Source: Candidatus Eiseniibacteriota bacterium (GTDB taxonomy: Bacteria > Eisenbacteria > RBG-16-71-46 > CAIMUX01). From it: DNA of 64,000 bases. Positions 4,181-22,374 of the stretch are shown here, piece by piece. Positions within the stretch are counted from its first letter, which is position 1; each line of letters opens with the position of its first letter. Position numbers and translations under genes: made by a program. Where the stretch lies: NCBI GenBank assembly GCA_903844735.1, contig CAIMUX010000131.1, positions 62,001 through 126,000 of the forward strand, given 5' to 3'. The notes under the pieces were generated by a model that was given only the letters and a program-made list of their open reading frames with translations, did no database searches and was not told where the DNA came from.

Positions 4181-6601
4181 TTACCGGCGCGGGTCGGCGA
4201 TCTCGGATGGCAGCGCACCACTGAGCCGATCCAACTCTCGTAGATATCCGGAGCGAGAGAGGACCTGGATGCTCGGCCGCTCCGACGGGCCGGAAAGGAC
4301 GGCATAGAGCGCCGCATTCTCGCCCCCCACCAACGAGGAGAGGAGCTTCCCCAGCCCGTCTCCGGTCTCGCCGATCGAACGGATACTGAGCACGCAGCGC
4401 AGAGAATCGCTCGCGTCAAGCTGCCCCGCCCCCTCGATCCGCAGCGGAGGCGCCTCGATACGGAGCCGGTTCCAGCGGAGCGTGCCGGCATCGCGACGGA
4501 CGTCCGCCTCCAGGAGATCGAAGGTGAGAACCGAGAGCCTGTCCAGGTGCGTGCGGCGGCGCAGCTCCTCCTGAATCGGCAGGCCGCGCAGGCTACCGTC
4601 GGACGCGTGCAACGATCCTTCGAGCTGAACGCCCGCAGCAAAGGCATCCGCCGAACTCGGCCAGCGCAATCGCATCGTTCCGGAGAGCGTCCCCTCGACA
4701 CCCCGAGCCATTCCAGGGTTCATCCGTGCCAGCAGGGGCCGCAACAGCTTGAGATCGACCCCGCTGATCTCCAAGCGTGTGTCCTGGGCCGCCAGTTCGG
4801 AGCGCCCGCCCTTGGCTGACGAGAAACCTCCGCTAAGGCGGCCGCCTCCCAGGCGGACATCGAGATGCTTGAGGCCGAACCGACGTCCGCTGCGATCCAA
4901 CTCTACCGAGAGGCTGTCGAACGCCACTCCCGCCACACTGCCCTGGTCGATCCGCGCCGCGCCGCGGCCGGGACGCGCGAACCAGAACGGGATCTCGTAG
5001 GCCGTGGGAAATCGGTTCCGGTCCAGGCTGAAATCCTCGATCCGGCAGAAGGGAGACGTGAACTCCCAGCGAGTCTCGGCACGGGCGTAGTCAGGCCTTC
5101 TCGGATCAGCCAGGGGCAGATCCCGTGCATCGAGACGAAACGGACTGCTCCCCCAGATCCCAGCCAGGACGAACCCAACTCTTTCCCCCGCGCCCCAGGC
5201 GTCCAGGCTGCCCTGCGTGAGACTGTCCGCAAACCAAGGGCCACGCAGACGAGTGAACGACCCGTCCATGCGACCTCGTGGCATCAGGGTCCACCCTCCG
5301 CCCAGTGCCTCACGCCTCCCCTCGAACGACACGGTCCCGTTCATCCGCCCGGCCGCGCTCCATCCCTGGCCGAGAATTCCGATCCATCCCGGGTCGAACG
5401 TCCCGGCAAGATTCCCGGTGAGGTGAAGCCCGTTCGTGGTGGAGAGCCATTGCAGTTGGACTTCCGCGCTGTCCCGACCGGCGCCGTCGCGGTCACGCAA
5501 TACGAGGCGGGAGACGTCGATGCGACCCGGCAGGATGCGCACTGTTCCCGACACCCCGGTACGTGGTGATTCCGCCCCGGTCAGAGAGAGAAAGCCTCCC
5601 CGCAGCTGTACCGCCGCCTCCCCCACTCCGGACAGCCGCCACCCCTCACCGCTCGCGTGCAGACTCCACGGCCCCTCCCATCGCAGCCGGCCCAGCGGAC
5701 CGTCGCGACCATCGAGAAAGGCCTGCGCCACCGTGCCCATGGGATCCCGAAGGTCCCCCGACCAAGACGCCACGCCCCCCTGACCCGCTTCGGCCACACG
5801 AATGCGCACGCCGGAGGAATCGGACCCGAGAGCAAGGTCCCAGACAGGCCCGTCACCGAACTTGCCCGCGTCGCGCAGAAGTCGCACAGGTACCGACCAA
5901 GCGCGCTGTTTCACCCGCACGCGCAGTTCTCCCGCCAGCTCGAGGCGGTCCCCTCCCGTGAAGAGGCGCACCTCCCCCACGCGCACGGCTTCACCCTCCG
6001 GAAACAACTCGGTGGGAAGCCGGATGTCGAGGTCGCGCGCCAGCACCGCGGGTTCCCGACCAACTCGCTCCGCACGCGATGGATCGCCGGATTGCGAAGC
6101 GTCGGCCGGGCCCGCCCCGCTTTCCTGGATCACGCGCAGGAGAGCACTCCAGGGGATGGGCCGTGGAGCGCCGGAAATCGGGTCGACGTAGCTGCGTGGC
6201 GCTTGAGGCAGCAGGTCGCGACCGATGTCGACGACGCCGCCGCGGATCTCGACGCGATCAAGGCCGGGGCGCAATGGGAAGCCCCAGCGCGGGACCAGAT
6301 CAACGGCTTCCAGACGAATGCGGCCTGATACCGCGCCCGGCCCGGGACGACCGGAGAGAACCGATGCCTGAACGCCGCGCAGGCGCAAGGCTGGGCGCGG
6401 CAGCCAGCGAAGGCGTGAATCCTCCCAGCTTGGAGTAGAGACGCGTCCATCGAGACCGATCCCTCGAACTGCGGCTACTAGATCGACCTCGCGCGCGCGT
6501 CGTTCAAGCGAGGTGCGGACCGCCCGATCGGCCACAAGACCGGCGGAGACGATGAGAACGCCCGCCCCGAGCCAGGCCCAGCGGCGTCCCTTGCTGTCCA
6601 T
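4181..6601 (-). CDS. AsmA-like envelope protein
   Basis: An 806-residue protein with one N-terminal membrane anchor (about residues 8-27, WAWLGAGVLIVSAGLVA) and a long, beta-rich periplasmic part with repeated LRL/VDIG-type strands. Near the C-terminus the pattern SGTMRL, GSLHASDGSLRGLPI, and then FDLLEADVRRDAGTLRWNR resembles the C-terminal domain of AsmA/TamB-related proteins, which are thought to carry phospholipids across the envelope or affect outer-membrane assembly. The ATG at 6601 follows GAGGGGACGGC. The gene starts 54 bases after the L,D-transpeptidase stop on the same strand, so the two are probably co-transcribed. AsmA membership is by overall pattern; the family is very divergent. 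Confidence 0.7.
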   Translation of the reverse strand: MDSKGRRWAWLGAGVLIVSAGLVADRAVRTSLERRAREVDLVAAVRGIGLDGRVSTPSWEDSRLRWLPRPALRLRGVQASVLSGRPGPGAVSGRIRLEAVDLVPRWGFPLRPGLDRVEIRGGVVDIGRDLLPQAPRSYVDPISGAPRPIPWSALLRVIQESGAGPADASQSGDPSRAERVGREPAVLARDLDIRLPTELFPEGEAVRVGEVRLFTGGDRLELAGELRVRVKQRAWSVPVRLLRDAGKFGDGPVWDLALGSDSSGVRIRVAEAGQGGVASWSGDLRDPMGTVAQAFLDGRDGPLGRLRWEGPWSLHASGEGWRLSGVGEAAVQLRGGFLSLTGAESPRTGVSGTVRILPGRIDVSRLVLRDRDGAGRDSAEVQLQWLSTTNGLHLTGNLAGTFDPGWIGILGQGWSAAGRMNGTVSFEGRREALGGGWTLMPRGRMDGSFTRLRGPWFADSLTQGSLDAWGAGERVGFVLAGIWGSSPFRLDARDLPLADPRRPDYARAETRWEFTSPFCRIEDFSLDRNRFPTAYEIPFWFARPGRGAARIDQGSVAGVAFDSLSVELDRSGRRFGLKHLDVRLGGGRLSGGFSSAKGGRSELAAQDTRLEISGVDLKLLRPLLARMNPGMARGVEGTLSGTMRLRWPSSADAFAAGVQLEGSLHASDGSLRGLPIQEELRRRTHLDRLSVLTFDLLEADVRRDAGTLRWNRLRIEAPPLRIEGAGQLDASDSLRCVLSIRSIGETGDGLGKLLSSLVGGENAALYAVLSGPSERPSIQVLSRSGYLRELDRLSGALPSEIADPRR

Positions 6602-18859: not shown

Positions 18860-18893
18860 GGGGGCTGCCGGGGATTCAACCTGAGCAGCCCCC
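18860..18893 (-). terminator. Hairpin after the AKKA-repeat gene
   Basis: GGGGGCTGC (18860-18868) and GCAGCCCCC (18885-18893) form a perfect 9-bp stem with a 16-base loop, 20 bases beyond the stop of the AKKA-repeat gene. The trailing T-run is weak. Confidence 0.5.
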
Positions 18894-18913: not shown

Positions 18914-19045
18914 TCAGGCCTTCTTCGCGACCTTCTTCACGGCCTTCTTCGCGACCTTCTTCACGACCTTCTTCACGGCCTTCTTCGCGACCTTCTTGAC
19001 CGCCTTCTTCGCGACCTTCTTAGCGGCCTTCTTCGCCATCGGCAT
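18914..19045 (-). CDS. Lysine-rich AKKA-repeat protein, histone-H1-like
   Basis: A 43-residue protein. After MPM it is made only of Ala, Lys and Val in ten tetrapeptides of the form A/V-K-K-A/V. This is the composition of the C-terminal tails of eukaryotic histone H1 and of bacterial nucleoid proteins with AKKA repeats, so DNA or RNA compaction by charge is a reasonable inference; no globular domain is present. A strong GGAGGGAGGTG precedes the ATG at 19045; an alternative ATG at 19039 is in frame. It starts 29 bases after the stop of a receiver protein on the same strand and should share its sigma-54 promoter. The DNA itself is a 12-bp-type tandem repeat, so copy number may vary between strains. 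Confidence 0.75.
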   Translation of the reverse strand: MPMAKKAAKKVAKKAVKKVAKKAVKKVVKKVAKKAVKKVAKKA

Positions 19046-19074
19046 CTTGCATTCACCTCCCTCCATGGCCTGCT

Positions 19075-19482
19075 TTAGTTATTGCCTCGTGCGCCAGCGG
19101 CGGCGCTCGATCCGCTTCCCCCCAGGAGACCTCGGATCAGCCCGAGCATGGCGTCCAGATCGAACGGCTTGCGAAGATAGTGGTCGACAGACAATTGGCG
19201 GCACCGACGTTCCGACTCCGGACTGTCAAATGCCGTCATGACGATGACGCGGCCGGCATAGCCCCGCTCACGCTGGCCCTGCAACAGATCCAGCCCGGAG
19301 CGATCCGGCAGCTTCACGTCGAGCACCATCAGATCCACGTCTCCGCCCTGGCCCTTGAGCAGCGCTTCCCCATCGCCCGCCGTCCCTGCGGGAAGAACCT
19401 CGTACCCGGCATCCCGCAGCGCGTTGGAAAGCGTCCGCAGAAGCAGAGTTTCGTCATCCACGATGAGAACCTTGTGCGCCAC
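19075..19482 (-). CDS. Stand-alone response-regulator receiver protein
   Basis: A 135-residue CheY-like protein. A GTG start at 19482 is chosen because GGAGG lies eight bases before it and the receiver then begins at once with VAHKVLIVDDE. The acidic pocket DDE, the phosphorylated Asp in MVLDVKLPDRSG (about residue 53), the Thr/Ala of IVMTAFDS and the Lys of LRKPFD are all present. No output domain follows; only a short Gly/Ala tail. Partners cannot be read, but the NtrB-like kinase at 21283-22374 is close. It is preceded by a near-consensus sigma-54 promoter (19509-19525) and followed by the AKKA-repeat gene. Confidence 0.9.
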   Translation of the reverse strand: MAHKVLIVDDETLLLRTLSNALRDAGYEVLPAGTAGDGEALLKGQGGDVDLMVLDVKLPDRSGLDLLQGQRERGYAGRVIVMTAFDSPESERRCRQLSVDHYLRKPFDLDAMLGLIRGLLGGSGSSAAAGARGNN

Positions 19483-19508
19483 CTTACAAGCCTCCAGTGG
19501 CTCTGAAG

Positions 19509-19525
19509 TTGCAATGATTGTGCCA
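19509..19525 (-). promoter_or_regulatory. Near-consensus sigma-54 promoter for the receiver/AKKA operon
   Basis: On the minus strand TGGCACA-ATCA-TTGCAA (19525 to 19509) differs from TGGCACG-N4-TTGCW at one weakly conserved base. The start would fall near 19499, leaving a leader of about 17 bases with the ribosome site at 19491-19495 and the GTG at 19482. An NtrC-type activator is encoded beginning about 230 bases upstream. Confidence 0.75.
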
Positions 19526-19750
19526 ATGCCGACCACTCCACGACATGCAAGGCATAACCCATTGTGAGGCCATGTGATATATCAGGTCAGGGGTCTTTGC
19601 GGAACGAGGACAAACCGAGCGGCAGGATCGCGGGAAGTGCAAGAAAGTCTTACAGTTGTGGCGACAAAACACAAAACATGTTGCGACACAATGGGTTGGC
19701 GAAGCAGAAACACCTGTCAGAACATCTTACATGTCAAAAGAATGGACACA

Positions 19751-21286
19751 TTATGGTTCGACGGGCTCCGCAGTCCGCCCGCCCCTTCGCAGCCGGTCGA
19801 TCAGCCCTTGGCGTGAAAGTCCGAGAACGCGCGCGGCCCGGCTTTTGTTGCCGTCACATCGAGCCAGGACCAGTCGGATGTACTCCTCTTCCACATCATG
19901 GAGGGTGGGCAACGGCTCCTCCGCGGAGAGAGGAAGCAGGAGAGGCAACGCGACGGCCGCGCCAGAGCCGCGCGCTTCGCCGACTCCTCCAGGTGGAGCG
20001 GTTCCTCCCCGCTCTCCCCCCGTTGGAGGCACGCCCCGCGGTGCGGGGGGCCCAAGGAAGAGAAGCTCGGCCCGCTGCGGGGCGCCAGACAAACCGGCCT
20101 TCCTCGCCACTCGCTCCCGGATCTCGGGTGGCAGGTGCTCGGCCGTAAGGACCTCGCCATCCTCAACGATGACGATCCGTTCGATGAGGTTGCGCAGTTC
20201 GCGCACATTCCCAGGCCAGTCGTAGTTCCGAAAGAGAGAGCGCACATCCTCGTCGATGGCCCGGAAGCTTCTCTTCAGCTCGGCCGAGAAGCGCTTGAGG
20301 AAGTGCTCGGCGAGGAGGTTCACGTCGTCGCCCCGTTCCCGCAGAGGAGGCAGATGGATCGATACGACCTGGAGCCGGTAGAAAAGGTCGGTGCGGAACC
20401 GCCCCTCCTCGATGCGTCGGGCCAGGTCGACATTGGTTGCAGCTACGATACGAACATCGATGCTGATGTCGACATTGCCGCCGACCCGCCGGAAAGATCG
20501 ATCCTCGAGAAAGCGAAGCAACTTGGCCTGCGTCTGGGCGGGCATCTCCCCCACCTCATCTAAGAAGAGCGTGCCGCCATCGGAGAGCTCGGCCAAGCCT
20601 CGCTTGAGGTAGGAGGCACCGGTGAAGGCCCCTCGCTCGTGCCCGAAGAGCTCGTTCTCCAGCAGGGTCTCCTGGAAGGCGGAGCAATTGAGCTCCATGA
20701 ACGGAGCGCGGCGGCGGGCGCCCTCGAAGTGGACCCCGCGCGCCACCAGCTCCTTCCCGGTCCCGCTCTCGCCGGTAATGAGGACGCTCGCCGCGTCGGA
20801 TCGAGCCACTTTGCGCACCAGATCCCAGACACGTGCCATCGCCTCGGATCGGTACAGGATCTGATCAGGATTGTAGAGACTCCGGTCCTTGCGCCGGTAG
20901 ACGCGAAGTTGAGCGTCGCGCGCAAAGGTTTTTGCGGCCGTCTCCACGGCGAGGATGAGCTCGTCGAGGTCGTAGGGTTTGCGCAGAAAATCGGTGGCCC
21001 CGGCCTTCATGGCTTGCACCGCCGCCTGGGTGTCACCATAGGCGGTGATGACGATGATTTGTGTCGAGTTCTCCACCCGGTGGATCCGGGGGATCAGATC
21101 GAAGCCATTGGCATCGGGCAGCCGCAGGTCGAGCAGGACGATGTGGGGGCGCTCCGCCTCCATCCGTTCGAGCCCCGCCTGCCCATTGGCCGCCACCGAG
21201 ACAAGGAAGCCGCGATCGGTGAGGACCCGCCCCAAGGAGCGGGTGATGGACGGCTCATCGTCGATGACCAGGACTCGGTACTTCAA
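19751..21286 (-). CDS. NtrC-family response regulator (receiver, AAA+, Fis-type HTH)
   Basis: A 511-residue sigma-54 activator. Receiver at about residues 5-120 with DDE, LLDLRLPDANG (phosphoacceptor Asp) and FLRKPYD. AAA+ at about 145-385 with GESGTGKELVAR, GAFTGA, GGTLFLDEVGEMP and YDWPGNVREL. A long Gly/Pro-rich linker follows, then a Fis-type HTH (CDGNKSRAARVLGLSRQGLIDRL). The start is TTG at 21286, whose bases overlap the kinase stop as TTGA, so the two genes are translationally coupled. The open frame upstream is only the shadow of the kinase. It is the last gene of the exbB-exbD-kinase-regulator operon and is a good candidate to activate the sigma-54 promoter at 19509. Confidence 0.93.
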   Translation of the reverse strand: MKYRVLVIDDEPSITRSLGRVLTDRGFLVSVAANGQAGLERMEAERPHIVLLDLRLPDANGFDLIPRIHRVENSTQIIVITAYGDTQAAVQAMKAGATDFLRKPYDLDELILAVETAAKTFARDAQLRVYRRKDRSLYNPDQILYRSEAMARVWDLVRKVARSDAASVLITGESGTGKELVARGVHFEGARRRAPFMELNCSAFQETLLENELFGHERGAFTGASYLKRGLAELSDGGTLFLDEVGEMPAQTQAKLLRFLEDRSFRRVGGNVDISIDVRIVAATNVDLARRIEEGRFRTDLFYRLQVVSIHLPPLRERGDDVNLLAEHFLKRFSAELKRSFRAIDEDVRSLFRNYDWPGNVRELRNLIERIVIVEDGEVLTAEHLPPEIRERVARKAGLSGAPQRAELLFLGPPAPRGVPPTGGERGGTAPPGGVGEARGSGAAVALPLLLPLSAEEPLPTLHDVEEEYIRLVLARCDGNKSRAARVLGLSRQGLIDRLRRGGRTAEPVEP

Positions 21287-22374
21287 CCGGACGGTCCCGC
21301 CCCGGAGCGGACCGGGAATGAGAGACGGAAGGTGACCCCTCCCTGGGAGCGGTTCCGCACCGTGATCCGCCCTCCGTGCTCGCGTAGGATCTGGAGGCTG
21401 ATGCTCAAGCCCAGGCCGGTCCCGGCGGGCTTGCTGGTGAAGAAGGGGTCGAAGATCTTGTCGATCACCTCCTCGGAGATCCCGCATCCGGTGTCGCTGA
21501 AGGCGACCTCCACCGCTAGACGCGAGCGGTAGCGGCGAACCGAGCTGGAGATGCGGAACTGCCCGCCCCCTGGCATCGCTTCGATGGCGTTCAAGACAAT
21601 GTTGAGGAAGACCTGCTGGATGGCGTCTCGGTCGAACGGAAGCCCGGGTAGATTCGGGGCCAGGTCGCGTCGCACGGTGATGCCGGCCTCCGCGAACGGG
21701 ATCTCAAGATTATCCATCACGGTTTCGAGGATGGGGTTGATGTCCTGCTCTACCAACTGGAACGACTTGGGGCGCGCGAACTGGAGTAGGTCGGTAGTGA
21801 ATTGTTCGATTCGGTCGAGCTCCTTGATGACCTCCTCTAAGTCCGCACGCAGAGTCGAGTCCCGGGGCATCTTGCCCCCGACATACTGGATGGTGGTACG
21901 GATCCCGGTGAGAGGGTTCCTGATTTCGTGCGCGATGACTGCGGAGAGATCGCCGACCGATGCGAAGCGGTCGACGCGGCGCTGGAACTCCACTTCGCCC
22001 ACGGTCTCGGTCACGTCATCAAAGGCCAGGATGGCCGCGATCGGCCCCTCCGTCTCGGCCGGAGTGAGCCAGCGCGCCTCGAGAAGAAACTCCTTCGAGC
22101 CATACTCGAGCATGATCTCGCGCGTGCCCGCCTCTTCGGGGTCGATCTGGTCCAAAGACCAGAATGAAAAGCCCGGGGTGCGCGAGTTCAGGAACTCGCC
22201 GGCCGGGCGGCCGAGGAACTCCTCGGCGGGAGTGCCCAGGATCTCCGACGCCTTCCGGTTGATGTAGAGGACGTGACTCTCCCCGTCCATAGCCAGAAGG
22301 CCGAAGTCGAGGCTGTCGAGCAGCTGCGGCACGAGTCCGCCGGCCGCCTCGGTGCCTGTCGTGCGGGGCGTCAT
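21283..22374 (-). CDS. PAS-containing sensor histidine kinase, NtrB-like
   Basis: A 363-residue kinase without transmembrane segments, so cytosolic. PAS domain at about residues 15-125 (LLAMDGESHVLYINRKASEI). HisKA contains the phosphorylated His in VIAHEIRNPLTGIR. HATPase motifs are N box FLNIVLNAIEAM, G1 DTGCGISEE, F box FDPFFTSKP and G2 GTGLGLSI. The ATG at 22374 overlaps the exbD stop as ATGA, and its own stop overlaps the start of the regulator gene. The pair forms an NtrB/NtrC-type two-component system, unusually cotranscribed with an ExbB/ExbD motor pair. Confidence 0.93.
   Translation of the reverse strand: MTPRTTGTEAAGGLVPQLLDSLDFGLLAMDGESHVLYINRKASEILGTPAEEFLGRPAGEFLNSRTPGFSFWSLDQIDPEEAGTREIMLEYGSKEFLLEARWLTPAETEGPIAAILAFDDVTETVGEVEFQRRVDRFASVGDLSAVIAHEIRNPLTGIRTTIQYVGGKMPRDSTLRADLEEVIKELDRIEQFTTDLLQFARPKSFQLVEQDINPILETVMDNLEIPFAEAGITVRRDLAPNLPGLPFDRDAIQQVFLNIVLNAIEAMPGGGQFRISSSVRRYRSRLAVEVAFSDTGCGISEEVIDKIFDPFFTSKPAGTGLGLSISLQILREHGGRITVRNRSQGGVTFRLSFPVRSGAGPSG

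Follow-up and report, generated by a model that had tools for sequence, protein, structure and literature searches.

Histone H1-like proteins of bacteria are usually regarded as constitutive or developmental chromatin proteins, which possess a fold or a long tail. Of the described examples, the chlamydial histone H1-like protein Hc2 (HctB) carries Lys-rich repeats and varies strongly in length (PMC2848022), and hctB and tsp were the only promoters found by sigma-28 ChIP-seq (PMC12282069). AlgP associates with the nucleoid and with polyphosphate granules and has been linked to starvation, and DNA binding in vitro has been shown for KPAA-repeat peptides (PMC9239181). As to the regulatory part, the closest systems are AtoS-AtoC and NtrB-NtrC, which, like the locus considered here, combine a PAS-HisKA kinase and a REC-AAA+-Fis activator with upstream dyads and a -24/-12 promoter; the difference lies in the output, a metabolic operon in those systems and a Lys-rich peptide in ours.

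The locus comes from the little-known phylum Candidatus Eisenbacteria, 47 genomes of which made up our sample; no published description of such a module was found in the openly licensed literature. The window, i.e. the whole 64,000-nucleotide stretch of DNA that was analyzed, belongs to a genome of 5.4 Mb in 142 contigs, whose close relatives are the MAGs L013 (Co_bin.215) and L014 (Bin_251, Candidatus Eisenbacteria). Two-component/sigma-54 regulation of the Lys-rich gene is well supported by sequence comparison, and we lean, with some reserve, towards the view that the whole module is a switch for an encoded polycation that binds or condenses an intracellular polyanion.

Organization of the locus in the window

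On the minus strand, a kinase, an activator, tandem dyads, a sigma-54 site, a lone receiver, a 43-aa protein of mainly Ala, Lys and Val, and a hairpin follow one another. The first gene (21283..22374, minus strand) encodes an AtoS/NtrB-like sensor histidine kinase of 363 aa with PAS, HisKA and HATPase_c domains (Pfam) and the H-box HEIRNP; a hydropathy scan revealed no transmembrane stretch (maximum over 19 aa, 1.12), and the protein is a predicted cytoplasmic PAS histidine kinase. The second gene (about 19751..21286, minus strand) has an uncertain start, probably a CTG overlapping the kinase stop. The REC, AAA+ and Fis-type HTH domains of its product (Pfam), with both Walker A (GESGTGKE) and GAFTGA intact, assign it to the NtrC family of sigma-54 activators. 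The activators of families f6 and f8-f11 have GAFTDA or GAYTDA, not GAFTGA, in the loop that contacts sigma-54. The equivalog cut-offs of NCBIfam were not reached by either protein (AtoC, 452.7 vs 714; ntrC, 417 vs 558.6; AtoS, 260.4 vs 646, the kinase matching AtoS with 3.1e-77, under the cut-off). The gene for sigma-54, rpoN, was found in 45 of the 47 genomes of the phylum, with two copies in that of the window. Upstream of the kinase lie ExbB/ExbD, and downstream of the module lie GalE and an MgsA-type AAA+ protein. We rejected GalE, MgsA or UvrA as a conserved downstream partner, the neighbor being different between families (GalE or UvrA).

The sigma-54 promoter TGGCACAATCATTGCA (19510..19525, minus strand) is located 225 nt after the activator end, before the receiver gene, and has the TGGCAC-N5-TTGC form with GG-N10-GC spacing; it agrees with the consensus at 11 of 11 positions and predicts a transcription start near 19498. 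Exact TGGCACRNNNNTTGCW sites occur three times in the 5.4-Mb genome, and twice in a control with the reversed pattern; when the 150 nt ahead of the receiver were shuffled 1000 times under a first-order Markov model, no shuffled sequence scored as high as the window site. The earlier note had placed this element about 17 bases ahead of the GTG start. The element itself stands, but the distance is 26-27 nt; the value of 17 applies if one counts from the predicted start site. The search for binding sites upstream of 19525, which the same note proposed, yielded two putative enhancer sites on the minus strand, TGTCCATTCTTTTGACA (19732..19748), an exact TGTC-N9-GACA, and TGTAAGATGTTCTGACA (19715..19731), which has one mismatch and lies 17 bp from the first; the dyad is spacing-specific across orthologues.

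The stand-alone receiver (19075..19482, minus strand; 135 aa) starts with GTG at 19482, preceded by the Shine-Dalgarno sequence GGAGG, and consists of a receiver domain only (Pfam Response_reg, 2.3e-21) with the Asp pair, phospho-acceptor Asp, Thr/Ser and Lys of such domains; Asp10, Asp55, Thr83 and Lys105 are invariant in alignment A1. The Lys-rich polycation gene, MPMAKKAAKKVAKK...AKKA (18914..19045, minus strand), begins 29 nt further on, as had been noticed before, with ATG at 19045, about 7 nt after the Shine-Dalgarno sequence GGGAGGTGA (19053..19061, minus strand). Its 43-aa product MPMAKKAAKKVAKKAVKKVAKKAVKKVVKKVAKKAVKKVAKKA consists of Ala, Lys and Val alone after MPM, again as originally read. 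An alternative start at 19066 would give 50 aa; the position of the Shine-Dalgarno sequence favors 19045. No sequence coding for KKxxKKxxKK was found in the genome outside this gene. Behind it lies a terminator-like hairpin GGGGGCTGC...GCAGCCCCC with a weak T tail (18860..18893, minus strand; -26.7 kcal/mol for a 55-nt stretch), which the terminator consensus scan did not call. Since the gap between the genes is only 29 nt and a hairpin is found only after the second of them, the receiver and the Lys-rich gene are presumably co-transcribed.

Conservation of the module and the fate of the receiver

Orthologues of the receiver are present in 21 of the 47 genomes of the phylum and are well separated (E of 1e-48 or better inside the set, about 1e-30 or worse for everything else); among about 340 genomes outside the phylum there was none, the next best match being 1e-30. 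The survey of homologous receiver-AKKA pairs suggested in the earlier note gave a uniform picture, a strong Shine-Dalgarno sequence and a Lys-rich ORF being found 3' of the receiver stop in all 21 loci, mostly after 18-52 nt. These ORFs encode 13-138 aa: 13 aa (MAKKKAKAKKKKK) in G016, 16 aa (MPAKKKASKKKTAKKK and variants) in f11, about 20-25, 37 or, in the window, 43 aa in others, and 64-138 aa elsewhere in f1-f4/f7, where some of the long forms run to contig ends. The activator is directly upstream in 20 of the 21 loci and the kinase, in the same order, in 19; locus L069 is cut by the contig, with the activator still seen, and L080 (G039) lacks both genes.

In each of the 21 loci the best-scoring sigma-54-like site is 40-77 nt ahead of the receiver start; the match is significant in 18 upstream regions (p < 0.05, first-order Markov shuffling) and weak in G004, G005 and G038. 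Exact TGTC-N9-GACA was counted 19 times in the 21 upstream regions of 420 nt each, against 0.13 expected, and 36 times, against 2.9, with one mismatch. The motif came from inspection of palindromes in these same regions, which makes the count partly post hoc; the spacing control is strong, comparable enrichment appearing at spacing 9 only when spacings of 5 to 13 were scanned. Similar 17-bp tandem dyads are found in G005, G003, G017 and G039, and G012 and G006 show no enhancer match, some other genomes a weak one. Such an upstream dyad, kept across orthologues, is what distinguishes an NtrC-type enhancer, and binding to it is predicted. A genome-wide regulon derived from TGTC-N9-GACA was rejected; its 95 sites in the genome are too common for prediction. 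Taken with the phylum-wide synteny and the retained promoters, the spacing-specific dyad strongly supports the earlier proposal of sigma-54 control exerted by the neighboring NtrC-type activator, and of a receiver paired with the AKKA protein.

That the Lys-rich ORF is no gene but a low-complexity stretch with a chance sigma-54 match beside it seems to us extremely improbable. Repeat slippage can create such ORFs and the genome has three exact copies of the promoter consensus, but the position, Shine-Dalgarno sequence, lysine frame and promoter are conserved in about 40 genomes. Nor could the pairing with the receiver be accepted as chance, its position being conserved in 21/21 orthologous loci.

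A receiver orthologue is missing from all 20 genomes of family f10. The order there is kinase orthologue (43-50% identity), activator and TGGCACG-type site, with the peptide immediately behind; the latter is kept in 19 of the 20 genomes as 11-22 aa, mostly MAAKKKAAKKKATKKKAAKKKK, with the Shine-Dalgarno sequence GAGGAGGTGAT; the shortest is MAKKKAAKKKK (G033, 11 aa). Seventeen of these loci are intact on one contig; G023 keeps the activator end, promoter and peptide, and G035 stops at the contig edge. In G027 (L130, G027:C131) the activator is followed by an apparent insertion-sequence transposase, the promoter and peptide being on another contig. The sigma-54 regular expression matched 17 of the 19 peptide loci (not G032 and G037), and a related dyad, CGTCAAGTNTCTTGACA, lies mostly 224-227 nt upstream of the sigma-54 site, although these loci were outside the motif discovery set. 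Alignment of the f10 loci revealed no conserved leader besides the Shine-Dalgarno sequence. Of the remaining genomes, G002, G009 and G013 are cut, and G011, G014 and G045 have no kinase orthologue.

In the midpoint-rooted tree of the kinase and activator, f10 stands beside the receiver-bearing G012 (f6), nested among receiver-bearing families, so a single loss of the receiver in f10 is the simplest reading. We accordingly dismissed the idea that the module is built around the receiver, which f10 has lost without losing the other parts. The retention of kinase, activator, sigma-54 site and peptide without the receiver points to the Lys-rich product as the invariant target and core output, the receiver being, as judged from gene content, dispensable. 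The receiver probably serves to tune the pathway, perhaps by acting as a phosphate sink or through feedback. The same family weakens the supposition that the peptide binds signaling proteins (e.g. the acidic receiver or the kinase) for feedback rather than for bulk condensation. The Lys-rich product is co-encoded with the two-component system in almost every locus and shares an operon with the receiver in all families seen except f10; however, it is kept in f10 without the receiver, and with lengths of 11-138 aa and no motif conserved beyond lysine spacing it does not resemble a specific interface. We consider this explanation quite improbable.

Evidence for translation of the peptide, and the 3' element

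The frame that is preserved is the lysine reading frame, and its Shine-Dalgarno sequence is strong and nearly constant. For ten distinct 66-nt forms of the f10 peptide gene, pS was 0.24 and pN 0.083, a ratio of 0.35 that points to purifying selection but is only supportive, as the sample is small and every lysine codon is AAG. Within about 10-20 nt after the stop, f10, f11 and f8 carry the motif GGAYYnGGCACGTCCT (one base off in G016 and G033), followed by a hairpin whose sequence changes while its pairing is kept. The motif is near-invariant in 25 aligned loci; the exact 16-mer stands at the module locus in 26 genomes of f10/f11 and elsewhere three times in the 47 genomes (G001, G002, G039). 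At L113:7011-7070 and the equivalent positions in f10/f11, the 16-nt element forms a small hairpin before the terminator-like stem. A search of the loci against Rfam assigned the element to no known RNA family.

It may be that in f10/f11 the RNA itself matters. Taken further, this would mean that the main product is a sigma-54-dependent RNA, the 16-nt element (GGAYYnGGCACGUCCU) and the hairpin being regulatory and the peptide secondary, as in dual-function RNAs. Besides the conservation of the motif and its position next to the hairpin, the resemblance of its CACGUCCU to the anti-Shine-Dalgarno sequence CACCUCCU and its absence from Rfam are in line with this suggestion. However, families f1-f4, f6, f7 and f9 lack the motif and keep the Lys-rich ORF; this includes the window, which has only a short GGACCGTTGATCC before the hairpin. 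Moreover, the coding constraint and strong Shine-Dalgarno sequences favor translation. On the whole, a primary role of the RNA appears improbable.

Proposed function and comparison with known polycations

The operation of the module as a polycation switch may be pictured as follows. The PAS kinase, on sensing its condition, would phosphorylate the adjacent NtrC-type activator, which would bind the TGTC-N9-GACA dyads, located some 200-225 bp upstream, and so activate the sigma-54 promoter. The transcript, ending at the hairpin, would code for the stand-alone receiver in most families and for a Lys-rich protein (11-138 residues) wherever the copy is complete. This protein would bind and condense or charge-neutralize an intracellular polyanion, most probably the nucleoid. 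Phosphorylation driving the activator, its binding to the dyad, the trigger, the polycationic action of the product and its polyanionic target are all parts that we infer from sequence.

Length and sequence are free to vary, whereas the density and spacing of the lysines are conserved; a bulk polycation is therefore most likely. DNA is its most likely target, given that Lys-rich tails occur on DNA-related proteins and that KPAA peptides bind DNA; polyphosphate and RNA are also possible. By inspection, L118 (G011:C95, 2707-2968) encodes a lookalike of the topoisomerase I C-terminus that has a KKKTAKKK-type tail at its end, and L123 (G003:C42, about 4709-5147, minus strand) an HTH-like protein whose long tail is of the AKKATKKK type, which suggests that DNA-binding proteins of the phylum use Lys-rich tails. 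The compaction of the nucleoid that the earlier note had in mind is a plausible chromatin-like role. For the peptides of 11-16 aa, a generic polycation (for DNA, RNA or polyphosphate) is no worse a description than a histone-like protein; a stable nucleoid protein would be expected to be longer, and such peptides may be degraded.

The partner might also be polyphosphate or another storage polyanion and not the nucleoid, the peptide organizing granules or buffering polyphosphate in starvation as AlgP does. The Lys/Ala/Pro-rich, DNA-binding AlgP sits with polyphosphate granules, whose even spacing in nitrogen starvation requires it (PMC9239181), and our kinase is NtrB/AtoS-like. Yet no polyphosphate gene linked to the module was seen, its downstream neighbor varies, and AlgP carries a separate N-terminal domain that the Lys-rich peptides lack. 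We find this alternative rather doubtful. Returning to the polycation switch, we may extend it tentatively, and with less than even confidence, to the suggestion that throughout the phylum an encoded oligolysine, down to 11 residues, is the peptide counterpart of a polyamine with its own kinase-activator pair, whose single conserved target at the locus it would be, condensing the nucleoid or screening polyanions; in some families the 3' RNA element would contribute a further level of control.

Outside the phylum, a search for a Shine-Dalgarno sequence plus the K3 pattern gave six matches, and at all five examined the NtrC-sigma54 arrangement was absent directly upstream. Those at L169 (G115), L170 (G254), L171 (G384), L172 (G297) and L173 (G259) are free-standing Lys-rich micropeptides of 22-39 aa with strong Shine-Dalgarno sequences. 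Such microproteins may form a wider unannotated class.

If the invariant product of a phylum-wide two-component/sigma-54 circuit is a bare Lys-rich peptide, down to 11 residues, then the question of how much chromatin-like function needs charge density alone becomes testable with tiny synthetic peptides. It would also mean that a conserved signaling system can have as its main output genes so small that annotation usually overlooks them.

Membership in the known H1-like families was rejected, the scores being far under the cut-offs. Pfam HC2 (PF07382) gave no match above its cut-off (best 12.3 bits vs 40). The Burkholderia-type H1-like family NF038053 (NCBIfam), alike in composition, did not match the window protein and reached 19 bits (E 0.0014; cut-off 80 bits) with the 118-aa form of G003. 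Hc2 shares with the module Lys-rich repeats of variable length and expression by an alternative sigma factor, but it is 165-237 aa long and depends on sigma-28, not sigma-54. AlgP and PhaF of Pseudomonas are likewise Lys/Ala-rich, H1-tail-like and DNA-binding, whereas their KPAA repeats are borne on an N-terminal domain and neither is a micropeptide. By analogy, the module would act like a regulated H1-like polycation of the Hc2 or AlgP kind, while failing the H1-like profiles.
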